A DNA stretch of 21,316 nt from a virus, in the IMG/VR virus record IMGVR_UViG_3300001848_000082, positions 1-21,316 of that record; one strand, written 5' to 3'. Both the position numbers and the translations under genes were made by a program. The notes under the pieces are model-generated. The model did not search any database. It was not told the DNA's origin and was given only the letters and a program-made list of their open reading frames with translations. Below, one piece after another: positions 2,528 through 14,615 of this stretch. Every line of letters begins with the position of its first letter. The stretch's first letter is position 1.

Positions 2528-2758
2528 ATGTCTAAAACTCCAACGCAAATTAAATCTTTGGCACGCTCTCACACTGAGACGGCCATCAATGTCCTTGTCG
2601 GCATTATGAACAAGGAAAGCGCTCCCGAGTCATCGCGAGTGACGGCAGCAGAGGCGTTGTTGTCGCGCGGGTGGGGTAAGCCATCGCAGGCGATTGATGG
2701 CGATGGTGACGGCGGACCAATCGAACTCAAGGTCACATGGCAGAACAGCGGATCGTAA
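2528..2758 (+). CDS. Candidate small terminase subunit or terminase-adjacent protein
   Basis: Predicted 76 aa. Two helices (IKSLARSHTETAINVLVGIM and SSRVTAAEALLSRGWGKP) resemble the repeat found in phage proteins encoded directly before the large terminase in rhizobial phages. The C-terminus is glycine/aspartate-rich. Immediate position and a 22-nt overlap with the large-subunit gene suggest a small terminase or packaging-recognition role. The protein is short for a full small terminase, which usually has a DNA-binding domain plus oligomerisation core, so this is an inference from context. No clear Shine-Dalgarno is present; translation may be coupled to the gene before it, whose stop is adjacent. 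Confidence 0.6.
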   Translation: MSKTPTQIKSLARSHTETAINVLVGIMNKESAPESSRVTAAEALLSRGWGKPSQAIDGDGDGGPIELKVTWQNSGS

Positions 2759-4020
2759 TTCCGTACACGCCTCGACCTCAATTTCTGGCCTACCACGAAC
2801 GAACGGAACGCTTTTCTAAAATTGTGGCCCATCGCCGCTTCGGTAAGACGGTGGGCTGCATCAACGACAAAATCCGGGCCGCTCTAAGCAATACGAGGCA
2901 GTATCCGCCGCCGCGATATAGCTACGTTGCCCCGACCTATGCTCAAGCCAAGGACATCGCCTGGGGCTACCTGAAGCACTACAGCGCGCCGATCCCGGGC
3001 ATCAAGATCAGCGAAAGCGAGCTTTGGGTTGAATACCCGAACGGGGCGCGTGTCAGGCTCTATGGCGCCGATAACTATGACCGAATGCGTGGTCTCTACA
3101 ACGATGGCGTGACCGTCGATGAGCCGTCGCAGATGGATCCTAGGGCGTGGCCCGAGGTTATACGCCCGACGCTAAGTGATTATAACGGATGGGGTACATG
3201 GATCGGCACGCCGCAGGGCCGTGACTGGTTTTACAAGATTGATCGAGACGAGAAGGGCGAATTGCTCCCGGATTTCTTTCGGTTGACGCTCAAGGCTAGC
3301 GAAACGGGCATCATCAAGCCGGAAGAACTAGCAAGCCTTCGCGACGGTCTTTCCGAAGAACAATACGCTCAAGAATTTGAATGCAGCTTTGATGCAGCCG
3401 TCGTCGGTGCTTACTACGGCAAGCTGATGACGCAGGCTGAGGCCGACAAGCGCATTACGGGCGTTCCGTATGAGCCTACAGCGCAAGTCTGGACCGCCTG
3501 GGACTTAGGTATCAGGGACGCGACGGCAATCTGGTTTGCGCAGGTTGTTGGGCGTGAGATTCGGATTATCGATTATTACGAGGGTTCTGGCGTCGATCTT
3601 GGACATTACGCCAGAGAGTTGCTGAACAAGCCTTATATTTACGCCGGTCACATTGTCCCGCACGACGCACAAGCTAAAGAACTTGGGACTGGAAAGAGCC
3701 GGTTAGAGGTTCTGGAATCGCTAGGGCTGAAGAACCTTAACGTTGCGCCGATGCACCGTGTTGAAGACGGCATTAACGCGGTTCGCGTGATGCTTCCGAA
3801 GTGCTGGTTCGATGGCAAATGCGCCCGAGGTATTGAGGCGCTGAAGCTCTACAGAGCCGAGTTTAACGATAAGTTGCGGGCATTAAAGCCGCGCCCGGTC
3901 CACGATTGGACGAGCCATGCGGCGGATGCCTTTCGCTATCTGGCGATGACATTGGACGGCGTTGCAGTTCAGGCCGGATTTAACCGCCAGCTGGAATATC
4001 CACGGCTAGGAATTGCTTAA
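2737..4020 (+). CDS. terL: Terminase large subunit (packaging ATPase/nuclease)
   Basis: Predicted 427 aa. This is the DNA-packaging motor that docks on the portal and cuts concatemers. The N-terminal ATPase has a Walker A variant at residues 32-39 (HRRFGKTV) with Lys37. Walker B is at about 124-129 (GVTVDE), with Asp128 and Glu129. A coupling-motif stretch lies around 153-159 (GTWIGTP). The C-terminal RNase H-like nuclease begins near residue 252 with WTAWDLGIRD (Asp256), and the final catalytic region contains DWTSHAADAFRY near the C-terminus. Length and motif order match a complete short terminase. AAGG lies 4 nt before the ATG, which sits within the upstream gene (22-nt overlap). The stop is directly followed by the portal start. 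Confidence 0.95.
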   Translation: MAEQRIVIPYTPRPQFLAYHERTERFSKIVAHRRFGKTVGCINDKIRAALSNTRQYPPPRYSYVAPTYAQAKDIAWGYLKHYSAPIPGIKISESELWVEYPNGARVRLYGADNYDRMRGLYNDGVTVDEPSQMDPRAWPEVIRPTLSDYNGWGTWIGTPQGRDWFYKIDRDEKGELLPDFFRLTLKASETGIIKPEELASLRDGLSEEQYAQEFECSFDAAVVGAYYGKLMTQAEADKRITGVPYEPTAQVWTAWDLGIRDATAIWFAQVVGREIRIIDYYEGSGVDLGHYARELLNKPYIYAGHIVPHDAQAKELGTGKSRLEVLESLGLKNLNVAPMHRVEDGINAVRVMLPKCWFDGKCARGIEALKLYRAEFNDKLRALKPRPVHDWTSHAADAFRYLAMTLDGVAVQAGFNRQLEYPRLGIA

Positions 4021-4617
4021 TTGGCTGACAAAATTTCAACCGACGAATTGAAGGCAATGCTTGCGTCTCAGAAATCTGATGCGCTTGCCTCGATGTCGGC
4101 GGCTTACCTGATGGAAGACCGAGCCAAGGCGCAGGATTACTACCTTGGGCGCATGGATCAGGACATGCCTGCCCCTGAAGGGCGCTCGCAGGCTGTATCA
4201 ACGGACGTGGCCGATAGCGTGGAAGGCTTGATGCCGGCCCTGATGGATATTTTTGCAGGTTCGGATGAAGTGGTCCGCTTTGAGCCGGTAGGCCCGGAGG
4301 ACGAGGAAGCCGCGGAGCAAGAGACGGATTACGTCAATCACGTCTTCATGCAGCAGAACGACGGCTTCATGACGCTTTATAATTTCATCAAGGACTCGCT
4401 GATTTCCAAAACCGGCATCGTCAAGATCTGGTGGGATGAGCGGGAGCTTGAAGAGCGCGAAACCTATTACGGATTGACGGACGAGCAGTTCGCCATGCTG
4501 GCGCTGGCTGTTCAGCAGTCGAATGGCGCAATGAAGGTGGTTGAGCATACCGCAAGGGATGCCAATCACGAGGCCAATGAGACCCCGGCGCAAGAGCAGA
4601 AAGAGGACGCCTATTGA
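4021..4617 (+). CDS. Portal protein, N-terminal part (split gene)
   Basis: Predicted 198 aa, starting with TTG at 4021 directly after the terminase stop. TAGGAA (4007-4012) lies 8 nt upstream, which supports this unusual start. Residues 1-160 (SMSAAYLMEDRAKAQDYYLG, then PEGRSQAVSTDVADSVEGLM and FIKDSLISKTGIVKIWW) are the N-terminal body of P22/SU10-type portal proteins. These form the dodecameric ring at the unique vertex through which DNA passes. In the family, portal is normally a single chain of about 700 or more residues; here the frame stops at a TGA in an acidic, low-complexity segment and continues in the next gene. The stop and next ATG share a base (TGATG, 4615-4619). Confidence 0.85.
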   Translation: MADKISTDELKAMLASQKSDALASMSAAYLMEDRAKAQDYYLGRMDQDMPAPEGRSQAVSTDVADSVEGLMPALMDIFAGSDEVVRFEPVGPEDEEAAEQETDYVNHVFMQQNDGFMTLYNFIKDSLISKTGIVKIWWDERELEERETYYGLTDEQFAMLALAVQQSNGAMKVVEHTARDANHEANETPAQEQKEDAY

Positions 4618-6266
4618 TGGCCTCCCTTGCTCCGTTGCCTGCGCCTCAGTTGCATGACGTTACCGTAGTCTCTACCCGCAAGCTGGCCCAAGCCAAGGTC
4701 ATGGGCGTGCCGCCGGAAGAGTTCGGTATCGAGCGCGCTGCGCGTAACATCCGCGATTGCAATTACTGCTTTCACGAGGTTGTAACCAAGACCGAAGCGC
4801 AGTTGATCGACGAAGGGTACGACGAAGACCAAATCAAGGCCCTGACGGATTACACGGGCCTGAATGAAATTGAGACGATTGAGCGCGATACTGTTGCCGA
4901 GCACCTGACGAACAACGGCAGCGGGCTTAATTCAGCCGCTCGCATCGTCAAGGTGACTGAGCATTACATCCGTATGGATTATGAGGGCAACGGTCGCCCT
5001 TGTCTGTACCAGGTTGTGACCGGAGGCGAGCAGGGCGAGGTTCTGCGCAAGGACGGCAAGGACTGTGTAACGCCGTTCGACGCCATTCCGTTTGCTGCGA
5101 CGTGTCCGATTCCGCAACCGCATCGTTTCTTCGGTCGTTCGATTGCCGACATTGTTATGCCGTTGCAGCGCGAGAAAACGGCGCTCAAGCGCGGCATTCT
5201 CGACAACATTTACCTGCATAACAACGCCCGGACTGTTGTTGCCGAAACTGGGGCATCGAATAACACCCTCGATGACCTGCTTTCTTCGCGCATTGGCGGC
5301 ATTGTGCGGGCAAAGACGACGGATGCGATTGTCCCGCTGCAGGTTCAGGATGTGACCACATCGATCTATCCGGTCTTGCAATACATCGACGCGGAACTTG
5401 CAACCCGCACGGGTGTCAGCAAGCAATCGCAGGGCATCGACGCCAACGCCTTGCAGAACCAGTCGGCAACGGCTGTTGCGCAGGTGTTTTCGGCCTCGCA
5501 GATGCGCACCAAGCTCATTGCGCGTGTGATCGCGGAGGGTGTGAAAGACATCTTCTCGCTGCTTCATGCGACGATCCGCAAGCACGGCCAGCAGGCTCAG
5601 ACGGTTCGGTTGCGCAATCAATGGGTCAATATCGACCCGCGTCAGTGGCGTACCCGTAACGACATGACCATCCATGTCGGGCTGGGCAACGGCGGCAAGG
5701 CGCAGCAGTTTGCGCAGCTCATGGCGATTGCGAACTTTCAAAAAGAACTGATCCTCGGCAAAAGGACCAATCTTGTTGACGATAAGAAAATTTACAATCT
5801 GGGTGAGGAAATCATAAAGCTGACGGGGCACAAGAACCCCGACCGCTTTATAAACGATCCGAACGCAAAGAAACCGGACGGGTCGCCTAAATATCCAGCC
5901 CCGCAGCCTGCGCCTGACCCAAAGCTGCAAATCGAGCAGATAAAGCAGCAGGGCAAGCAGCAAGAGGTTCAGATCAAGGCGCAAGCTGACCAGCAAAAGG
6001 CTCAGCTCGGTGCCTATCATGAGCAGATTCAGGCCATGGCGGATATTGAGGTTGCCAAGTTCAAGGCTCAGGTCGATCAGCAGTTGGCGTTGCTGGATGC
6101 GAACCTGAAAGCACAGCTTGCGGCGCAGCAGCATCAGCACGCGGCGCAACAGCATCATGCCGACTTGGCAAGCAAGGCGCTGGACATGGTTGCTACGGCT
6201 CACGCGCACGACACGAAAATGGAAGTGATGCGCGAGCAAACAAAGAATAAACCTAAGAATGACTGA
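4617..6266 (+). CDS. Portal protein, C-terminal part (split gene)
   Basis: Predicted 549 aa from the ATG at 4617; a TTG at 4614 is possible. AAGAGGA (4601-4607) lies 9 nt before this ATG, a good ribosome site. The early residues (LHDVTVVSTRK, VPPEEFGI, IRDCNYCFHEV) continue the portal fold exactly where the N-terminal gene stops. The middle (FFGRSIADIVMPLQREKTAL, then GVSKQSQGIDANALQNQSAT) is the conserved portal core. Residues about 436-549 form a long Gln/Ala/His-rich helix, matching the coiled barrel at the portal C-terminus in P22. Together the two parts reach 747 residues, the size of an intact relative. The last 8 nt overlap the following gene. Confidence 0.88.
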   Translation: MASLAPLPAPQLHDVTVVSTRKLAQAKVMGVPPEEFGIERAARNIRDCNYCFHEVVTKTEAQLIDEGYDEDQIKALTDYTGLNEIETIERDTVAEHLTNNGSGLNSAARIVKVTEHYIRMDYEGNGRPCLYQVVTGGEQGEVLRKDGKDCVTPFDAIPFAATCPIPQPHRFFGRSIADIVMPLQREKTALKRGILDNIYLHNNARTVVAETGASNNTLDDLLSSRIGGIVRAKTTDAIVPLQVQDVTTSIYPVLQYIDAELATRTGVSKQSQGIDANALQNQSATAVAQVFSASQMRTKLIARVIAEGVKDIFSLLHATIRKHGQQAQTVRLRNQWVNIDPRQWRTRNDMTIHVGLGNGGKAQQFAQLMAIANFQKELILGKRTNLVDDKKIYNLGEEIIKLTGHKNPDRFINDPNAKKPDGSPKYPAPQPAPDPKLQIEQIKQQGKQQEVQIKAQADQQKAQLGAYHEQIQAMADIEVAKFKAQVDQQLALLDANLKAQLAAQQHQHAAQQHHADLASKALDMVATAHAHDTKMEVMREQTKNKPKND

Positions 6267-7635
6267 TATTGCTGCGGCTTACCGGAAGATAGCCGCAGAG
6301 CTTCTAAAAGACCCGGATAACGCCGAACAATTGGCGAGCCAATACACGATCCTGAGTAGCGGGCCTCGTAATCCGGCTCAGTTGGCAATCGCGCGGCGGT
6401 GTGCCGCGGTTGCTCCGAACGAGTTCATCGCGGTTTTCAATTACGCTTCGGCGCTCTCGCGTAACGGAGAGAATGCCATCGGTACTTTTCGGCGCGCTTT
6501 GGAGATTGCGCCACCAGATCAGCGCGGCACGACGCTGCATCATATCGGTCTAGCCTATCACGATCAGGGCGAATATGAGACCGCGCTGAGCTACTACGAA
6601 ATGGCCCGCAAGATCGCGGACAGTCGGTTACTGGGCCAGTCGATTGCGATTGCCAAGCTTGCCTGCGGTCGATTGCAGGAAGGTTTGTACGAGTTCGAGG
6701 TCAAGCATCACCTGAAGCCTAGAAAGGCCATCAGCGATAGCGGCATTCCGTGGTGGAATGGCGAAGACTTGACCGGCAAAACCGTCATCCTGACCCATGA
6801 ACAGGGGTTCGGAGACACGCTGCAATTCATTCGCTTTGCGCCCCGTCTCAAGGAATGGTGCAAGACGCTGATATTCTCGGGCAGCGAGCCTATCGCGCCG
6901 CTGATTGCCGAGCAGTTCGATTGTTTTGATGACGTGATTAACGAGGTCGGCCCGTTCAAGGCTGATTTTGTTACTTCGCCCATGGCGGCGGCTGCCTTGA
7001 TGGGCCTCGAATACGAGGATGTATCTGGTGAGCCTTACATGAAGGTCGAGCCCTTAAAGCTTCCGGCGCGCGGCAAACTGAAAGTCGGTTTGTCGTGGAA
7101 AGGATCGCCCGGCTACCAGAACGATGCGCTTCGGTCGGCAAGTCTGAAGGATTTCTGCCCGTTGTTCGATTTGCCGGGCGCTGCGTTCTATTCGTTACAA
7201 GTCCGACCGGGGCCGGCTGAGATTTCAGAACTGGGCCTCGACGGTTTTATTGCCGACATGGGCTCGCACTTTACGGACTGGCGCGATACGGCGGCTGCCA
7301 TTGCGGCCATGGATGTGATTGTCGCGACGGATTCAGCGAATGCTCACATGGCCGGCGCGCTTGGCGTTCCTGTCATGCTGCTACTTGGCAAGAACCCATG
7401 CTGGCGCTGGATGCGCGGCGACACAACGCCTTGGTACGACAAGACCAAAATATTCCGTCAGGAGAAGGTTGACGAATGGCCGATGCGGCAGGTTCGGAGC
7501 GAATTGCAAAGACTTGTATCAACTGTTCATTCGGCAACTTTGGCCTCTCCGAAAGCTTCGTCGCCTGCAAGCGGTATCCTGCCGAAATACAGAAGCGCAC
7601 TGATGACTGGTGCGGCGAATGGAAGCTGGCACTGA
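6259..7635 (+). CDS. TPR-containing glycosyltransferase (GT9/heptosyltransferase-like)
   Basis: Predicted 458 aa. N-terminal helical repeats (about 36-150) include a clear TPR, GLAYHDQGEYETALSYYE (97-114). The C-terminal half resembles glycosyltransferase-B enzymes of the heptosyltransferase/GT9 group fused to TPRs: HEQGFGDT at 180-187 at the start of the domain, VGLSWKGSPG at 276-285, ATDSANAHMAGALG at 356-369 (the nucleotide-sugar-side motif) and CWRWMRGDTTPWY at 381-393. It would transfer a sugar to a protein or glycan; donor and acceptor are unknown. It is translated from an ATG overlapping the portal stop by 8 nt and lies between portal and scaffold, where no enzyme is expected. No signal peptide or membrane segment is seen. 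The family-like part ends near residue 426; the remaining 30 or so residues are low-complexity because the DNA also encodes the next gene. Confidence 0.75.
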   Translation: MTDIAAAYRKIAAELLKDPDNAEQLASQYTILSSGPRNPAQLAIARRCAAVAPNEFIAVFNYASALSRNGENAIGTFRRALEIAPPDQRGTTLHHIGLAYHDQGEYETALSYYEMARKIADSRLLGQSIAIAKLACGRLQEGLYEFEVKHHLKPRKAISDSGIPWWNGEDLTGKTVILTHEQGFGDTLQFIRFAPRLKEWCKTLIFSGSEPIAPLIAEQFDCFDDVINEVGPFKADFVTSPMAAAALMGLEYEDVSGEPYMKVEPLKLPARGKLKVGLSWKGSPGYQNDALRSASLKDFCPLFDLPGAAFYSLQVRPGPAEISELGLDGFIADMGSHFTDWRDTAAAIAAMDVIVATDSANAHMAGALGVPVMLLLGKNPCWRWMRGDTTPWYDKTKIFRQEKVDEWPMRQVRSELQRLVSTVHSATLASPKASSPASGILPKYRSALMTGAANGSWH

Positions 7636-7661
7636 ATGGACGAAGCAAAACTCGGACGTGA
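7476..7661 (+). CDS. Small four-cysteine, probable zinc-binding phage protein
   Basis: Predicted 61 aa, nested over the 3' end of the glycosyltransferase gene in another frame. It has Cys14, Cys17, Cys31 and Cys46 in the order C-x2-C ... ACKRYPAEI ... DDWCGEW, a pattern I recognise from short phage proteins that end in a WCGEW-like motif. The spacing could hold one zinc ion; the function is unknown. The start is well supported: AGGAG at 7460-7464 and GAAGG at 7464-7468 lie 7-11 nt before the ATG. It overlaps the upstream gene by 160 nt and the downstream gene by 26 nt. Confidence 0.7.
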   Translation: MADAAGSERIAKTCINCSFGNFGLSESFVACKRYPAEIQKRTDDWCGEWKLALNGRSKTRT

Positions 7662-7923
7662 CGTATCCCGCGCTTCGCAAGCGCAAAGCCTCCTTGAAAA
7701 CGAATTGTTCAATGAGGCGATTACCACGCTTAAGCGCGAACTCATGGACGCTTGGGAGGCTACTCAGCCGCGCGACGTAGACGGCAGGGAGCGCTGCTGG
7801 GCAGCGGTACAACAGGTCGGCAGGCTGAAAAGTTATCTGCAATCCGTCTTGAATGACGGCAAGCTTGCCAATGCCGAACTTAAGGAACTGACCGAACGCC
7901 AGAAGCGCTTCGGGATCGTTTAA
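7636..7923 (+). CDS. Small helical phage protein encoded before the scaffold
   Basis: Predicted 95 aa, starting right after the glycosyltransferase stop. It is almost wholly helical and charged (SLLENELFNEAITTLKRELM, then RCWAAVQQVGRLKSYLQSVL). It resembles a family I recall in the portal-scaffold interval of rhizobial podophages and prophages, with no known function. A role in head assembly is inferred from its position only. Its ribosome site is weak (GGAAG about 12 nt upstream), so it may depend on translation of the overlapping cysteine protein. Confidence 0.75.
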   Translation: MDEAKLGRDVSRASQAQSLLENELFNEAITTLKRELMDAWEATQPRDVDGRERCWAAVQQVGRLKSYLQSVLNDGKLANAELKELTERQKRFGIV

Positions 7924-7941: not shown

Positions 7942-9054
7942 ATGACGACCGAAACCGGCGCCCCCGCGACGGAGCAATCCGCTGCGCCCGCCATTCAGGA
8001 TGACGGTGTTTCCGAACTTTCACTCGAAGATGCTCGCGCGCTACTTGATGCGCAGATGGCCGAACCGGAGGCCGAAGAAGAGCCGGTAAAGAAAAAGGCT
8101 GCAGAGCGCGCGGAAGAACCCGCGACCGCAGAACAGGAATCCTCGCAAGAGGACGGCGACCCGGAAACGGACCCCGCTGAAGAGACGCAGGAAAGCGATC
8201 AGGAAGAGAACCTTCCTCCCATCGAGCGTCCGAGGTCTTGGGCAAAGGAACTAGACGAGGAATGGGCTTCCTACCCTCGCGCTGCGCAAGAGAAAATTGC
8301 AAAGCGTGAGTCGGAACGAGATTCCGCGCTACGACGAAGCCAGAATGAAGCTGCTGAAGCCCGCAAGGCCATTGAAGCCGAGCGTCAGCAGATGGAACAG
8401 GCGCGTAAACAGTACGAGGCACGACTACCTTCGCTAGAGCAGGCGTTGCTGGACGTTCAGTTTAACCAATTTCCCGACATCAAGACGATGGCGGATGTTG
8501 AACGGATGGCCCAGGAAGACCCTTTCCGCAAAATTCAATGGGACACGCACCAGCAAAAGCTGCAGGCGCTCGCCTATGAAAAGCGGCAAGCCGACGAACG
8601 TCTGGCAAATGAAAAGGCAATTAAACGCAACGAGTACGAGACGGAACAGAACAAAAAACTGGTCGAATACCTTCCCGAAATGGCCGACGCAAAAAAGGCA
8701 AACGAATATCGGGATCGTGCCGTCAAGCTACTTACTGACGACTTGGAACTAAGCCGCGATCAGCTCTCACGCTGGATGCAGGACGATACTGGACATGAAA
8801 TTCTGTCCAACGCCTCCATTCAACGTCTCATTGTTGACGGCTTGAAACTCCGGGACATTCAGAACGCGCCAAAGGCCATCGCTGCCAAGCCGCTTCCGCC
8901 CGTTCAAAAGCCTGGTGTCCCGCGTGGAAACGCGAACGATACCAACATACAGAACCTCGAACGAAAACTCGCATCCTCCGGCTCCGAAGCGGATGGCTGG
9001 GCTTTGCTGCAAGCAAAAATGGCCCGCTCCGAACGAGGCCGCAGGGCATCATAA
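7942..9054 (+). CDS. Head scaffolding protein
   Basis: Predicted 370 aa. The N-terminal 100 or so residues are very acidic and low-complexity (runs of Glu/Asp with Pro and Ala). A long heptad-rich coiled coil covers about 110-170 (RRSQNEAAEARKAIEAERQQ), with further helices to about 300 and a basic C-terminus (KMARSERGRRAS). This composition, its length and its position directly before the major capsid gene are typical of P22-like scaffolding proteins. These act inside the procapsid and leave it before DNA packaging, and their basic C-terminal helix binds the coat. AAGGA (7931-7935) lies 6 nt before the ATG. Confidence 0.88.
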   Translation: MTTETGAPATEQSAAPAIQDDGVSELSLEDARALLDAQMAEPEAEEEPVKKKAAERAEEPATAEQESSQEDGDPETDPAEETQESDQEENLPPIERPRSWAKELDEEWASYPRAAQEKIAKRESERDSALRRSQNEAAEARKAIEAERQQMEQARKQYEARLPSLEQALLDVQFNQFPDIKTMADVERMAQEDPFRKIQWDTHQQKLQALAYEKRQADERLANEKAIKRNEYETEQNKKLVEYLPEMADAKKANEYRDRAVKLLTDDLELSRDQLSRWMQDDTGHEILSNASIQRLIVDGLKLRDIQNAPKAIAAKPLPPVQKPGVPRGNANDTNIQNLERKLASSGSEADGWALLQAKMARSERGRRAS

Positions 9055-9066
9055 GGAACTATTGAA

Positions 9067-10035
9067 ATGGCTTTCCAAGCAAATACCCTCGCCACCTATC
9101 AGGCGATTGGCAACCGAGAAGACCTCTCGGATATGATCTACCGCATTGCGCCGACCGTGACCCCGTTTGTTTCGGGTATTGCGCGTGAATCGGCAAATGC
9201 AACGAAGCACGAATGGCAGACCCAGGATCTCGCCGCTGCGGCCTCGAACGCCCAGCTCGAAGGTGACGATCCGTCCACCAACGCGACGACCGTTACCGTT
9301 CGCCTCTCGAACGTAACGCAGATCAGCTACAAGGTTGCCCGCGTGTCCGGCACTCAGCAGGCCGTTCGCCATGCTGGCCGCTCGAACGAGCTTGCCTATC
9401 AGGCCATGTTGAAGGGCCTTGAACTTAAGCGCGACATCGAGTTCAACTGCCTTGCCAACCAGACGCAGGTCGCTGGCGATACCACCACGGCCCGTCAGAC
9501 GGCTGCGGTTCTGTCGTGGATCAAGACCAACACGGACAAGGCATCTGACGGCACTACGCCATCCACTTCTGGTTCAAACAGCCGCGGCGATGGTACACAG
9601 CGCGCGTTCCTGGAATCGCAGCTCAAGAGCGTGTTGCAGCAGTGCTTCACACAGGGCGGCAATCCGGACACGATTATGGCTGGTCCGTTCAATAAGCAGG
9701 TCTTCTCGACCTTTACGGGCCGCTCTTCGCCTATCCAGGATGCCAAGAGCAAGAAGATCACGGCGTCGGTTGACGTGTACGAGTCGGATTTCGGCAGCCT
9801 GAAGGTTGTTCCGAACCGCTTTCTGCGCCTCGATGGTTCGAGCCGCATCGGTCGCGAAGTTCTCGTTCTTGAAATGGAGAAATGGGCGCTCGCGTTCCTC
9901 AATGGCCGCAACACGATACAGATCCCGCTTGCGAAGACCGGCGACAGTGATCGTCGTCAGGTTCTCTCCGAATGGACGCTCGTCTCGCGCAACGAGAAGG
10001 CGTCTGGCGGTATCTTCGATCTCACCACGGCTTAA
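9067..10035 (+). CDS. Major capsid protein (DUF5309/SU10-like, HK97 fold expected)
   Basis: Predicted 322 aa. The opening (MAFQANTLATYQAIGNREDL, IYRIAPTVTPFVSGI) and the middle (HEWQTQDLAAAASNAQLEGD) are characteristic of the DUF5309 coat family, to which SU10-type podovirus capsids belong. The C-terminal stretch (VVPNRFLRLD ... SEWTLVSRNEKASGGI) is also typical. This should be the most abundant virion protein. AAGGA (9053-9057) lies 9 nt upstream. A strong terminator follows, consistent with a separately controlled high-level head transcript. Confidence 0.93.
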   Translation: MAFQANTLATYQAIGNREDLSDMIYRIAPTVTPFVSGIARESANATKHEWQTQDLAAAASNAQLEGDDPSTNATTVTVRLSNVTQISYKVARVSGTQQAVRHAGRSNELAYQAMLKGLELKRDIEFNCLANQTQVAGDTTTARQTAAVLSWIKTNTDKASDGTTPSTSGSNSRGDGTQRAFLESQLKSVLQQCFTQGGNPDTIMAGPFNKQVFSTFTGRSSPIQDAKSKKITASVDVYESDFGSLKVVPNRFLRLDGSSRIGREVLVLEMEKWALAFLNGRNTIQIPLAKTGDSDRRQVLSEWTLVSRNEKASGGIFDLTTA

Positions 10036-10060: not shown

Positions 10061-10090
10061 GGGCGGCTTTCGAGCCGCCCTTTTCCTTTT
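10061..10090 (+). terminator. Rho-independent terminator after the capsid gene
   Basis: A perfect 8-bp GC-rich stem, GGGCGGCT (10061-10068) with AGCCGCCC (10073-10080), closes a TTCG tetraloop and is followed by TTTTCCTTTT (10081-10090). It begins 25 nt after the capsid stop. It is the only clear intrinsic terminator in the window and may reduce read-through into the downstream tail genes relative to capsid. Confidence 0.92.
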
Positions 10091-10108: not shown

Positions 10109-10477
10109 ATGGCCTATCCAAATAACCGCGTTTTCAGTGAAGAGCGCGTTAGCACTTCCACGACTTCCATCGGCGGCACTCCGGTTGCCTGTTATGTCGG
10201 CGTTCCGTTCCGTGGACGTATTACCAAATGGTCCCTTGTTGCTCAGGGCGCCATTACCACTGCGGACGCGGCAATTGCCGTTGCCGTCAATGGTACGGCC
10301 AACAGCGCCATGGCAGGCACTCTGCCGGTTGCGAGCGCAGCGGCGGGACAAATCCTGACTGTGGTTCCGACCTCGCCTGTCTATGTCAACGAAGACGACG
10401 TTGTGAAGTTCACGCCATCGGGTGCTTCTGGCGCGTCCATTGGCGGGCTGTTTACGATCTACGTTCAGGAGCAGTAA
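10109..10477 (+). CDS. Capsid-associated beta-rich protein (decoration or minor head protein candidate)
   Basis: Predicted 122 aa. It is small, neutral, rich in Ala/Gly/Thr/Val and almost certainly all beta (VACYVGVPFRGRITKWSLVA, then AAIAVAVNGTANSAMAG). The position directly after the major capsid gene and the size fit head-decoration or vertex proteins, but I recognise no specific family fold. An AAAGG-like site lies about 10 nt upstream. It is the first gene after the capsid terminator. Confidence 0.75.
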   Translation: MAYPNNRVFSEERVSTSTTSIGGTPVACYVGVPFRGRITKWSLVAQGAITTADAAIAVAVNGTANSAMAGTLPVASAAAGQILTVVPTSPVYVNEDDVVKFTPSGASGASIGGLFTIYVQEQ

Positions 10478-10968: not shown

Positions 10969-11297
10969 TGTCCGATCTCGGCGTCAAGGTCCACCTGGAT
11001 AGCAATGGCAATGATCTTGCCGTCGAGCATTTTCAGGATGTCGAAGCCATTATTCATAACAACAAAGAGCTGCAGAAAGAACGGCAGACGAGTGATGGAT
11101 TTCGCCACAAGGCCAGCATCCCTGAAGTGATTTTGGTCAAATGGCTGGATGAGGAATACGCACGCGGAAATTCCACGATCAGTTGGGGCTCCAAAGAATT
11201 TGATGAGCTTATCAGGCGCAAGCTTAACGATTCCGAATGGGCCTATTTGAGGACCGATAACTCTGCCGTTCAGGGCTTTCTAGGGTTCGGCTCATAA
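10968..11297 (+). CDS. Conserved phage head-region protein of unknown function
   Basis: Predicted 109 aa, acidic. It contains VHLDSNGNDLAVEHFQDVEA, KASIPEVILVKWLDEE and RRKLNDSEWAYLRT, a set of short conserved-looking blocks seen in phage proteins encoded between capsid and adaptor genes. Its function is not known; a head-completion or assembly role is a context-based guess. It is coupled to both neighbours by one-base TAATG overlaps (10966-10970 and 11295-11299). Confidence 0.7.
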   Translation: MSDLGVKVHLDSNGNDLAVEHFQDVEAIIHNNKELQKERQTSDGFRHKASIPEVILVKWLDEEYARGNSTISWGSKEFDELIRRKLNDSEWAYLRTDNSAVQGFLGFGS

Positions 11298-11941
11298 TGG
11301 CTATCACGACCTATTCCGAACTCCAGACAGCAGTCGCCAACTGGATGGATAGGACAGACCTGACCGCACGCATTCCAGAGTTCATCGCGCTTGCCGAGGC
11401 AAAATACAATCGCGACCTGAGTTGCATTCAGATGGATAAGCGAGCAACCGCATCCATCAACATCAACTCTACAGAACCGCAATACCTCGCGTTGCCAGAC
11501 GACTTTAATTTCATGAAGCGTTTGCGTATTACGAGTGTAGCTGGAAGGCCACTGCTCGCTTATCGCACGCCAATCCAGCTTGCAGAATTTGTTGCAGCTC
11601 GCGGAGATGCTACCGGCCAGCCTCTTTACTTCACTGTATTCGGGCCAGAGATGGAATTGGCGCCGGTTCCAGACCAGTCATACACGCTTGAGATGACATA
11701 CAAGCGCGACATCCCCGCGCTTTCCAATACTCAGACGACCAATTGGCTGTTGACGCAGGCGCCCGACGCTTACCTATACGGCGCTCTGCTGGAAGCAGAG
11801 CCGTTCATGAAAAACGATTCACGCATTTCAGTTTGGACGGCTGCCAGACAGTTCGTGGTCGATCAGCTCAACGCGCAGAGCCAAGACAAGATGTTCGGAG
11901 CCAGCCCCATTCAAATGATGCCGTCAGGCTATACCCCCTAG
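11297..11941 (+). CDS. Head-tail adaptor protein (SU10 adaptor / T7 gp11-like)
   Basis: Predicted 214 aa. The N-terminal helix (TYSELQTAVANWMDRTDL), the beta-rich LPDDFNFMKRLRI block and the C-terminal helices (YLYGALLEAEPFMKNDSRIS) match the adaptor family of podoviruses whose subunits bind under the portal. They form a ring between portal and nozzle and help retain DNA. Length fits the family. It starts within the stop of the preceding gene (TAATG) and ends just before a beta-rich gene with its own TAGGAA site. Confidence 0.8.
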   Translation: MAITTYSELQTAVANWMDRTDLTARIPEFIALAEAKYNRDLSCIQMDKRATASININSTEPQYLALPDDFNFMKRLRITSVAGRPLLAYRTPIQLAEFVAARGDATGQPLYFTVFGPEMELAPVPDQSYTLEMTYKRDIPALSNTQTTNWLLTQAPDAYLYGALLEAEPFMKNDSRISVWTAARQFVVDQLNAQSQDKMFGASPIQMMPSGYTP

Positions 11942-11953
11942 GAATTTCAAAAC

Positions 11954-12373
11954 ATGGCTGCATTCAACAAGTTCAATTCGTACACAAAGGACTTGGCGAC
12001 CAAAGTCCACAATCTCAATTCTGACACGCTCAAGATCATCCTGACCAATACTGCTCCGTCCTCGTCGAACACTGTTCTTGCCGACATTACGCAGATCGCC
12101 AACGGTAACGGCTACACGACGAACGGCACGATTGCGACGTTCACCAGCGGCAACACGTCGTCAGGCACCTACAAACTCATTCTTGCCGACGTGACGTTCA
12201 CGGCCTCTGGCGGGTCCATTGGTCCATTTCAATACGCGGTTCTCTACAACTCGACGGCGGCGAGTGGAAATCTCATTGGATGGTGGGATTACGGATCTGG
12301 TCTGACGGTAACAACCGGGAACTCATTTACGGTCGATCTCGATCAAGTCAACGGCGTTCTGACGATTACCTAA
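11954..12373 (+). CDS. Small beta-sandwich virion protein (tail/fibre-associated candidate)
   Basis: Predicted 139 aa. The pattern MAAFNKFNSYTKDLATKVHN, LKIILTNTAP, ADVTFTASGGSIGPFQYAVL and IGWWDYGSGLTV is one I recognise from widely distributed small phage proteins placed near fibre genes. Its role is unknown; receptor contact or fibre attachment is inferred. TAGGAA (11939-11944) lies 9 nt before the ATG. The protein is Ser/Thr/Asn-rich with no cysteines and no signal peptide. Confidence 0.75.
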   Translation: MAAFNKFNSYTKDLATKVHNLNSDTLKIILTNTAPSSSNTVLADITQIANGNGYTTNGTIATFTSGNTSSGTYKLILADVTFTASGGSIGPFQYAVLYNSTAASGNLIGWWDYGSGLTVTTGNSFTVDLDQVNGVLTIT

Positions 12374-12374
12374 C

Positions 12375-13250
12375 ATGGCATCATTTCTCGACGTTTGCCG
12401 CTTTACTGCGGTTTCATCCGGCACGGGTGATTTCGTCGTATCCGCCGCCGTTACCGGCTATCAGACTCCGGCATCTGCCGGCGCAACCAATGGCGCAACC
12501 TATCGCTATCGGGCTGAAAGTGCCGACCTTTCACAATGGGAGGTTGGTTATGGCGCATATACGACTGGCAGCACGACGCTGGCTCGCACGACTATTCTAT
12601 TTAGCTCGACGGGGTCAAAGGTTTCTTTTTCTGCGGCACCCCAAGTCGCAATTGTCGCGCTTGCCGAAGACCTAAATACGTTTGTCGTCGGCGTTATCGG
12701 AACCGACGTTCAGGCTTATGATTCAGATCTCGCAGCGCTTGCTGTAAACAGCACCAACGGATTATGGGCTCGTACTGGGACGGGAACGGGTTCTGCGCGC
12801 ACTATTACTGGAACGTCGAACAAGATCAGCGTTACCAACGGCGATGGCGTTTCTGGCAACCCTACGCTCACTGTTGGTAGTGACGTTCTTGACAAGACTG
12901 CGACCGCAACTCTCGCCGTTGGCTATAGCGCCACTTCGTACAGCGGCGGTTCACAGACCGGCTCAAGTCCGACATATACGCCAGCCGCAGCCAATGGAAA
13001 CTTCCAGCATATTACACTTAATGGGTCGTCTTTGACCGGCACGTTCACCGTAGGTGTGCCATCAACGGTTTGCTCGATTTTGCTTGAAATTGTTAACAGC
13101 GGAAGCGGATCGGTCGCTGCATCCTTCTCAACTAGCGGATTTACAAAGGTGACTGGCGATACTTGGGCCAGCACAAACGGCAATAAGTACGCAGCTTATA
13201 TCACAAAAACGAACAGCTATAGCCACTTGCATCTGCAAGCGCTGCAATAA
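12375..13250 (+). CDS. Tail fibre-like protein
   Basis: Predicted 291 aa. The N-terminal part (about 1-110) holds FRYRAES/YGAYTTGSTTLARTTIL-type strands common to fibre attachment domains. It is followed by the fibre-like linker VQAYDSDLAALAVNS and a GTGTGSARTITGTSN / KISVTNGDGVSGNPTLTVG repeat region (about 133-168). The C-terminal 120 residues are a beta-rich, possibly receptor-binding domain. This composition marks a short fibre or fibre adaptor. There is no strong ribosome site before the ATG, which lies two bases after the upstream stop, so translation is probably coupled. Confidence 0.75.
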   Translation: MASFLDVCRFTAVSSGTGDFVVSAAVTGYQTPASAGATNGATYRYRAESADLSQWEVGYGAYTTGSTTLARTTILFSSTGSKVSFSAAPQVAIVALAEDLNTFVVGVIGTDVQAYDSDLAALAVNSTNGLWARTGTGTGSARTITGTSNKISVTNGDGVSGNPTLTVGSDVLDKTATATLAVGYSATSYSGGSQTGSSPTYTPAAANGNFQHITLNGSSLTGTFTVGVPSTVCSILLEIVNSGSGSVAASFSTSGFTKVTGDTWASTNGNKYAAYITKTNSYSHLHLQALQ

Positions 13251-13259
13251 GGACTCGCC

Positions 13260-13625
13260 ATGCAGGTTGACGGTTTCGCGCTCAAATTGCGCGCGGATAA
13301 TTCCGTTTTGCAGCAGTGGACCACTATTCCAGACCGCGTGGAATTTCCTTCGGGTGATGTTGTTTTTTCCGCATCCCCCGGTTGGCAATCAGAAACATTC
13401 GAAATCGTGCCTTATTCGTGGAGCGAGCCAGACCCGCCAGCGGCGCCGTCTCGCATAAACAAGTTCACCGTCCTTTCGCGCCTTGATGCTGATGGCCTTC
13501 TGCAAGCCATGGCAGGTGAACTTTGGGGTGCGGTGGAGCGACAGACTATCGCGATTGACGATCCAAGCCTGACATCCATGTTGGATAAAATTGGCGCCAA
13601 CGCTGCAAAGATTTTGGCGCAATGA
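13260..13625 (+). CDS. Hypothetical protein in the fibre block
   Basis: Predicted 121 aa. AAGGA (13249-13253) is 6 nt before the ATG. The N-terminal two-thirds look beta-stranded with several Trp residues (LQQWTTIPDRVEFPSG, PYSWSEPDPPAAPSR), and the C-terminus is helical (DADGLLQAMAGELWGAVERQ). Position between two fibre-like genes suggests fibre assembly, a chaperone or a minor fibre subunit, but I do not recognise the family. The stop overlaps the next ATG as ATGA (13622-13625). Confidence 0.65.
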   Translation: MQVDGFALKLRADNSVLQQWTTIPDRVEFPSGDVVFSASPGWQSETFEIVPYSWSEPDPPAAPSRINKFTVLSRLDADGLLQAMAGELWGAVERQTIAIDDPSLTSMLDKIGANAAKILAQ

Positions 13626-14296
13626 CTTTTCCAAAACTCATTTTCGTTCCGTCGAAGGCTGCTGGCCCTGTTACATTTGACGCAAAAAATACGTCCGGGA
13701 CGACGGCGGGTTCAGCGACAACGCTTGATAACGGAAACCTGACTATTGGTTCTGGAGCAAATCGGCTGCTCGTTGCCGTTTTGATAATGAGTAATACGGC
13801 GCCGTCCAGCGAAACGATGGTGTGGGATCCATCCGGAGCAAATCAGTCACTTACGCTGATACAAGGCTTTAATGGTGGTAGCGGGCGAATTGAATTTTGG
13901 TGTCTTCCGGCCCCAACCTCCGGGAATAAGATTCTCCGCTATACGCAAGGGGGAGCAGCAGGAAATCTGATTCTCTCATGCATAAGCTTTACTGGAGCAA
14001 ATCAAGTCGGCGGCTCCACTTCTTGTCCGAACGCAACAAGCAATACTGGCACGGGCGTCACATCTAGCGTTACCGTGACGTGTCCGGCCAATGGCGCTGT
14101 TGTTGAAGGCACCATAAACCCAAGCTCTGTCACCTCTGTCTCCGGTACCGGACAAGTCGAAATTTATAAAAATAGCGCGCTTTCGGTCGTTGCCGGTGGT
14201 TCAAGTTACAATGTAGGCAATGCAAATCCGACTCTAAGCTGGAACATAACAAGTAGTTCATGGATGTCGGCTGGCGTTTCCATTGCCCCCGGATAG
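13622..14296 (+). CDS. Beta-sandwich protein, probable fibre or receptor-binding component
   Basis: Predicted 224 aa, very rich in Ser/Thr/Gly/Asn and beta strands. The block NLTIGSGANRLLVAVLIMSN followed by VWDPSGANQSLTLIQGF and GRIEFWCLPAPTSGNKI has the look of the lectin-like (concanavalin-type) domains in phage surface proteins. A GAN[RQ] motif recurs three times, encoded by near-identical GGAGCAAATC segments near 13755, 13837 and 13997. Carbohydrate or host-surface binding is plausible but inferred. Three cysteines (around CISFTGANQVGGSTSC and VTVTC) are unusual in a cytoplasmically assembled virion protein. Confidence 0.65.
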   Translation: MTFPKLIFVPSKAAGPVTFDAKNTSGTTAGSATTLDNGNLTIGSGANRLLVAVLIMSNTAPSSETMVWDPSGANQSLTLIQGFNGGSGRIEFWCLPAPTSGNKILRYTQGGAAGNLILSCISFTGANQVGGSTSCPNATSNTGTGVTSSVTVTCPANGAVVEGTINPSSVTSVSGTGQVEIYKNSALSVVAGGSSYNVGNANPTLSWNITSSSWMSAGVSIAPG

Positions 14297-14306
14297 GCGA
14301 AATTGA

Positions 14307-14615
14307 ATGCTTGGATTTGACGCAATTGGACGGCAGGCGTTGGGTCAAATTACCAGCCTCCGAACATTTACGCTTACTGCGTCTGCGTATGCTTTCGTTT
14401 TGTCGGGGCAGGCCGCGCTTTTCCAGACCAATATGGTCAGCATAAAAGCCACTTACACACTAACGGGCATGGATAGCATCCCAGTCATGCTCGGAACCGC
14501 AAGCACCGGAACATTTACGGTTGCCGGGAAGGACGCGGTGTTAACGCGAAACACTCTTTGGACCGAGTCTGCGCAGCAGAACGAGGTCTGGACAGAAAAG
14601 ATTTACGGCTCCTGA
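14307..14615 (+). CDS. Small beta-rich phage protein
   Basis: Predicted 102 aa. The opening MLGFDAIGRQALGQI is one I recognise from short proteins in phage tail regions, followed by repeated Thr/Ala-rich strands (FTLTASAYAFVLSGQAALFQ, ATYTLTGMD, TFTVAGKDAVL) and a charged end (ESAQQNEVWTEKIYGS). It may be a fibre-tip or tail-surface protein. The ribosome site is weak (TAGGCGA). Its TGA shares a base with the next ATG (TGATG, 14613-14617). Confidence 0.7.
   Translation: MLGFDAIGRQALGQITSLRTFTLTASAYAFVLSGQAALFQTNMVSIKATYTLTGMDSIPVMLGTASTGTFTVAGKDAVLTRNTLWTESAQQNEVWTEKIYGS

Follow-up and report, generated by a model that had tools for sequence, protein, structure and literature searches.

What is a glycosyltransferase doing among the genes with which a phage builds its head? 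The question is raised by a 21,316-nucleotide viral sequence (IMG/VR record IMGVR_UViG_3300001848_000082, positions 1 to 21,316; hereafter the window), in which a gene for a protein with tetratricopeptide repeats (TPRs) and a glycosyltransferase-like domain directly follows the portal gene. We refer to this gene and its product as GT. The annotation itself, a TPR plus GT9-like enzyme, is ordinary; its place is unusual and conserved. The window virus has Bradyrhizobium-type bacteria of soil and water as its hosts, and GT is an optional yet stably inherited part of its head operon. We propose, as a reading about as likely to be right as wrong, that GT is a late, cytoplasmic, FlmG-like protein glycosyltransferase of TPR + GT-B architecture that would decorate a phage head protein. 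The region comprises the following elements.

4617..6266, + strand: C-terminal part of the SU10-type portal, upstream neighbour of GT (PF23899, E 3.5e-129); its ATG is at 4617-4619 in TGATG
6259..6266, + strand: ATGACTGA, the GT start codon overlapping the stop of the portal C-terminal part, read from the sequence
6259..7635, + strand: GT, TPR-glycosyltransferase gene, 458 amino acids, ATG start; homologues at the same site in about 35 contigs
7636..7923, + strand: p95, small conserved head-operon open reading frame (ORF) of 95 amino acids directly 3' of GT (PHROG 8161/2346, with no assigned function)
7942..9054, + strand: scaffolding protein (PHROG 3927, E 4e-8)
9067..10035, + strand: SU10-type major capsid protein (MCP), candidate acceptor (PF17236, E 8e-96)
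10061..10080, + strand: terminator-like hairpin after the MCP gene, a possible 3' end of a portal-GT-p95-scaffold-MCP operon, by consensus match only
10109..10477, + strand: p122, small ORF after the MCP gene, possible capsid decoration protein and second candidate acceptor, by position and co-divergence (r 0.74)

By Pfam and PHROG matches, the window reads SU10-type portal, GT, p95, scaffold and SU10 MCP, with portal, scaffold and MCP (PF23899, PHROG 3927, PF17236) in the order of an SU10-type head operon. An earlier note, made from the letters of this DNA, had placed GT between portal and scaffold; membership of the head operon was borne out, with the correction that the 95-residue p95 intervenes before the scaffold gene. 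The overlap described there is present in ATGACTGA: the GT ATG occupies 6259-6261 and the portal stop TGA 6264-6266, so that the two reading frames overlap, and translation of the two genes may be coupled. A phage moron, or lysogenic conversion gene, would have a promoter and a terminator of its own and a deviating G+C content. Crude scans of the GT borders gave neither a promoter-like match nor a terminator-like match on the + strand, and the G+C content of GT, 0.56, is like that of the neighbouring genes. In PHROGs the GT protein matched unnamed family 36377 only, and p122 had no match in the PHROG search. p95 was present in nearly all GT-carrying loci.

To collect further carriers, contigs were scanned both with GT and with the MCP as lead. 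GT was found in about 35 distinct contigs, one of which is a prophage of Bradyrhizobium frederickii CNPSo 3426 (L114). In all GT contigs with enough context, GT lies 5' of p95, scaffold and MCP, and 3' of the portal where the portal is covered; the conserved layout is portal, an FkbM methyltransferase in some loci, GT, p95, scaffold and SU10-type MCP. In two loci (L134 and L173) the portal is displaced by kilobases, and FkbM, GT, p95, scaffold and MCP still lie together. The carriers fall into two clades. Clade A, that of the window, has GTs 62-75% identical to the window protein over its full length and at the same site, a conservation far above chance; the GTs of clade B, which includes L114, are 36-43% identical to it. 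In a tree the phage GTs of clades A and B form one supported clade (98/96), separate from chromosomal homologues.

Other relatives do without the gene. Loci that lack GT and have upstream sequence account for 87 distinct MCP sequences; in them the portal often passes directly into p95, and Bradyrhizobium phage ppBeUSDA76-2, the closest named phage, has no GT. The gene is therefore not essential for head assembly in general. The survey of related phages called for in the earlier note thus came out divided, with the position retained in some 35 contigs and the gene absent beside these 87 MCP sequences. Mapped on the MCP tree, GT presence changes few times (four changes were counted, two of which are false labels). 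Two loci initially taken as carriers, L066 and L107, had weak TPR-only matches and were relabelled. Because clade B loci were mostly collected by GT similarity, the presence of GT in 20 of 20 of them is a biased figure; an MCP-led search added no GT-less member of this clade among its nearest 80.

An FkbM methyltransferase gene precedes GT in 18 of the 20 clade B loci with distinct MCPs, and in both exceptions (L133 and L175) the contig starts at GT. The six loci scanned matched PF05050 with E values from 1e-21 to 3e-13. In clade A, FkbM lies beside GT in L008 alone; its close relatives L006 and L009, which have an identical MCP, lack it. FkbM proteins are often sugar O-methyltransferases, and the GT-FkbM pair therefore looks like a device for sugar addition followed by methylation.

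Domain and fold assignments agreed with the TPR plus GT9/heptosyltransferase-like architecture originally read from the translation. Three parts of GT can be distinguished.

6259..6705, + strand: N-terminal TPR-type helical repeat domain, residues ~1-149 (Pfam TPR_12 at 61-121; helices over 2-149, with model confidence mostly above 90)
6751..7533, + strand: GT-B domain, residues ~165-425, with the GD motif Asp D186, R292 and the D358/H363 motif (structure match, hhalign, invariant columns)
7534..7635, + strand: C-terminal tail, missing in most relatives and overlapped by a separate small ORF with a Cys motif

The TPR_12 match (residues 61-121, E 5e-8) exceeds the Pfam cut-off, and Glyco_transf_9 (PF01075, residues 344-403, E 1.7e-4) falls slightly under it, at 21.4 bits against 22; the prophage homologue in L114, 40% identical to the window protein, passes it with 23.5 bits. 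Glyco_transf_41 (PF13844) matched neither of these two proteins, and does match a gene neighbouring a host homologue. An AlphaFold model built with 39 homologues had a mean predicted local distance difference test score (pLDDT) of 92.5 and a predicted template modelling score (pTM) of 0.89, with TPR-type helix pairs over ~2-149 and a GT-B fold over ~165-425. An earlier model from nine close homologues (pLDDT 45) was unusable and supports no claim. When the GT-B domain was searched with VIA-align, the best match was WaaF (1psw; Z 17.8, 238 residues, 3.2 Å), followed by a Veillonella GT9 enzyme (Z 16.8), TibC (Z 16.4) and WaaC (Z 16.3). The top Foldseek matches of the model were O-GlcNAc transferases (OGT; family GT41), although whole-chain superposition of OGT and SPINDLY on the model was poor, with a root-mean-square deviation (rmsd) of ~17 Å. 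A profile of the GT domain gave no useful match to PDB sequences. The variable tail is overlapped by a 61-residue ORF (7476-7661) with a CxxC...C...C pattern, whose same-site counterparts occur only in L003 and L004.

Twelve residues are invariant in the 39 homologues: E181, G183, G185, D186, R192, R292, S293, D352, H363, A367, G369 and W384. The motif HEQGFGDT holds E181, G183, G185 and D186, and DSANAHMAGALG holds H363, A367 and G369; D358 is kept in 34 of the 39. The C-terminal motif aligned to WaaF, WaaC and WaaU of Escherichia coli (hhalign, E 4e-8), and both the GD motif and the C-terminal D-x4-H motif of GT9 enzymes are present in the window protein. We take D186 to be the counterpart of D13 of WaaF/WaaC in the GD motif, judging from the motif and the aligned range only. 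The dN/dS ratio was 0.02-0.15, with purifying selection on the TPR half and the GT half alike. Since the active-site-type residues are invariant and dN/dS is low, GT is under selection and is probably an active enzyme, a possibility that the earlier note had raised from intact-looking motifs; E181, D186, R292 and H363 are the residues concerned here.

We then compared the divergence of GT with that of its neighbours, using rank Mantel correlations between tree distances for as many as 28 loci; an identity-based version was also made. GT tracked the MCP most closely (rank r 0.88), followed by FkbM (0.83), p122 (0.74) and p109 (0.66). Values were far lower for scaffold (0.29), p95 (0.28), portal (0.16), the tail-side gene at 11297-11938 (0.14) and terminase (0.07). 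As scaffold and p95 sit between GT and the MCP gene, linkage alone does not fully account for this tracking. The distances thus lend support to a tie between GT divergence and the capsid, and do not prove which protein is the acceptor. A loop of the window MCP near residue 160 (KASDGTTPSTSGSNSRGDG) has a Ser/Thr fraction of 0.50 in clade A versus 0.31 in GT-less loci; the enrichment was not found in clade B. The loop is a possible acceptor site and, clade A being one lineage, a lead only. The terminase gene (2737-4020) is 0.29-0.78 identical between the window and its relatives, barely in relation to capsid similarity, and appears from this pattern to have been swapped among these phages.

Several known systems resemble parts of GT. 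In FlmG of Caulobacter crescentus, the TPR half binds flagellins, and the GT half alone fails to restore modification (PMC7591256). GT shares with FlmG the N-terminal TPRs, the C-terminal GT-B domain, the alphaproteobacterial setting and the lack of a secretion sign; the likeness drawn here is one of architecture, by Pfam and model. FlmG is longer (596 residues), also in its TPR domain, and the sugar that it puts on flagellins is pseudaminic acid, whereas GT lies in a head operon. WaaF and WaaC of E. coli share the GT-B fold (Z 17.8 and 16.3), the Asp of the GD motif and the C-terminal D-x4-H, but they have no TPRs and act on lipopolysaccharide (LPS), and GT is slightly below the Pfam GT9 cut-off. 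TibC, an autotransporter protein O-heptosyltransferase, is a GT-B enzyme (Z 16.4) with a protein acceptor; unlike GT, it is a dodecameric iron-containing enzyme according to its PDB title, is 13% identical and is not known as a TPR protein. The GT41 enzymes (OGT, XcOGT, SPINDLY) combine TPRs, GT-B and protein acceptors and are the top Foldseek matches, but GT has no Pfam GT41 match and the rmsd of ~17 Å indicates a different domain arrangement. Among phages, the mycobacteriophages Che8 and Rita encode glycosyltransferases linked to glycans on the MCP (Freeman et al., 2023, as cited in PMC11256854 and PMC12691614). Their host is unrelated, their relative Maravista has its glycosyltransferase genes towards the 3' end of the genome, outside the head operon, and the citing text mentions no TPR or FkbM link. 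A TPR-glycosyltransferase of cyanophage S-SRM01 (QPX48303.1) also joins TPRs to GT-B (TM-score ~0.7 to the model, 22% identity), but it is not in a head operon in the annotated stretch and falls in a separate clade of the tree.

According to our proposal, GT would be expressed late, together with the head proteins; its TPR domain would dock a head protein, most likely the MCP or p122; and its GT-B domain would transfer a host-supplied nucleotide sugar to that protein before or during assembly. Where relatives carry FkbM, the added sugar would then be O-methylated. FlmG serves as precedent for docking through TPRs and Che8 and Rita for a glycosylated capsid, and the TPR-GT41 genes found beside near chromosomal homologues in two Bradyrhizobium genomes also favour the proposal. 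Catalysis, the use of a protein acceptor, which protein and which sugar are involved, late expression and a benefit to the virion are the parts of the model that we infer. The virion-related role suggested in the earlier note gains from the retention of GT beside p95, scaffold and MCP, the tracking of the MCP, the lack of a promoter-like or + strand terminator-like match at the gene borders and the FkbM neighbour in relatives. In a more specific version, temperate SU10-type podoviruses that infect Bradyrhizobium and its kin would have a dedicated capsid-glycosylation cassette, made up of a FlmG-like TPR-GT9 enzyme alone or together with FkbM and tied to the head operon by gene overlap; the TPRs would dock the MCP, and the shell would receive its sugars during construction. 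This version is more tentative, and we would rather expect some part of it to fail.

A number of observations count against a head-protein acceptor. The gene is optional, as the 87 MCP sequences from GT-less loci show, and a test of four GT-carrying viral contigs revealed a tyrosine integrase in three, making lysogenic conversion possible. GT9 enzymes classically act on LPS. The tracking of the MCP is driven mainly by the contrast of clades A and B. Within clade B, the correlations of GT with MCP (0.85), FkbM (0.91), portal (0.86) and p109 (0.86) give no MCP specificity, and within clade A the value for the MCP is 0.53, with terminase or p95 equal or better. No MCP residue was found that is common to both GT-carrying clades and missing elsewhere, and in the MCP tree clades A and B do not group as sisters.

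The principal rival to a head-protein acceptor, which we judge unlikely, is that GT modifies the surface of the host during infection or lysogeny by acting on LPS, capsule or another glycan there, leading to superinfection exclusion or antigen conversion. The GT9 heptosyltransferases, which act on LPS, are the best structural matches; related phages carry tyrosine integrases, L114 lies within a Bradyrhizobium prophage, and LPS glycosyltransferases carried by temperate phages are known, one being predicted in a phage of rhizobia (PMC5537653). FkbM is compatible with both a surface and a head-protein target. Because GT sits in the head operon, starts within the end of the portal gene and lacks a promoter-like match, expression in a lysogen is not expected, and its even G+C content likewise speaks against this explanation. 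Moreover, the TPRs suggest a protein partner, and GT divergence follows the capsid genes, not the tail-side gene at 11297-11938. That gene, as a stand-in for the fibre ORFs, also bears on a suggestion of the earlier note, that the acceptor is the Ser/Thr-rich fibre block at 11954-14615. Glycosylation of tail fibres or other tail proteins fits the Ser/Thr-rich and partly structural nature of the downstream ORFs (PHROG 697 and others), and in both cyanophage BUCT-ZZ01 and a marine virus, TPR-glycosyltransferases sit amid genes for fibre or repeat proteins. The correlation of 0.14 with the tail-side gene, whereas the MCP was tracked, and the retention of GT with p95, scaffold and MCP weaken this idea and make it improbable.

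Still less probable is the glycosylation of a host protein, such as flagellin or a secretion or defence protein, in favour of the phage during infection. Alphaproteobacterial FlmG-type enzymes do glycosylate flagellins (PMC7591256), and a sample of 99 Bradyrhizobium genomes contained 51 with GT homologues, mostly longer proteins of ~27-41% identity. No flagellin gene lay beside the host homologues in the ten genomes in which positions were compared, and the linkage to capsid genes would be left unexplained. We give least weight to a catalytically dead TPR protein that serves as assembly chaperone or adaptor, its GT fold being a relic. TPR proteins often serve as adaptors and GT is placed among head-assembly genes, but the invariant active-site-type residues, the strong purifying selection on the GT half and the FkbM linkage, which indicates sugar chemistry, make this very hard to sustain. 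Glycosylation of DNA bases was set aside, as GT showed no association with genes for DNA modification and the TPRs indicate a protein.

No relative turned up when genome contigs were pattern-scanned with the phage GT alignment, such a scan being blind at ~27-41% identity. In two of the nearest chromosomal loci (L261 and L262, both Bradyrhizobium), a TPR-GT41 (OGT-type) gene adjoins the homologue and FkbM lies 8-10 kb off. The two clusters are alike in containing an FkbM methyltransferase, a PBP-like gene, the TPR-GT41 and the TPR-GT9, and a type II/IV secretion ATPase is close to the homologue in L261 only; they look like a protein-glycosylation and secretion locus. A distant TPR-glycosyltransferase family occurs in marine viruses (L146, L180-L192), with Cys in place of D358 in the five aligned members; in L146 it is surrounded, by eye, by RCC1-like repeat, oxygenase-like and sulfotransferase-like genes.

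The upstream portal has features of its own. The SU10-type portal of the window (4021-6266) is split into two overlapping ORFs at a hypervariable linker, with TGATG at 4615-4619. Among the 111 loci that have both halves, near-duplicates included, 86 had a split portal and 25 a fused one. Other ORFs lie between the halves, 0.5-5.4 kb apart, in 16 loci, and no Rfam intron was found between separated halves in the loci scanned. The portal of phage SU10 is a single protein of 85 kDa (PMC4281155). In the GenBank record of ppBeUSDA76-2 (L260), the C-terminal half (5925-7586) is open and unannotated. Relatives with fused portals (L048/L050, L079, L018, L070, L080 and L081) have other ORFs between portal and p95, mostly with no Pfam match, one of which (L079, 2477-3409) is very weakly lectin-like; these differing contents mark the junction as a variable insertion slot.

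In GT-less Bradyrhizobium phages and prophages, a tag like GGLLGMIQDYMRNNGY recurs at the C-terminus of accessory proteins that otherwise differ and whose ORFs lie close to the portal halves.

Tag-bearing accessory ORFs: L066 5161-6297; L107 4389-5144; L097 5439-6341; L098 4958-5770; also in L023, L031, L236 and others

The tag was found on 27 distinct C-termini in 28 loci, in none of 45,817 reversed ORFs and in no GT-carrying locus. One tagged protein is M23-peptidase-like. The tag has the look of a signal for sorting or packaging.

Sugar-coated phage capsids have so far been described in a few mycobacteriophages. The enzyme considered here is a single protein that brings its own docking domain and is encoded inside the head operon, and it is missing from many relatives whose capsids are similar. 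Since the known carriers include a prophage in a Bradyrhizobium that can be cultivated, the proposal can be tested in a lysogen. Whether the capsid is the acceptor, what use a sugar would be to a soil phage and how TPRs might choose a viral acceptor thereby become testable questions.

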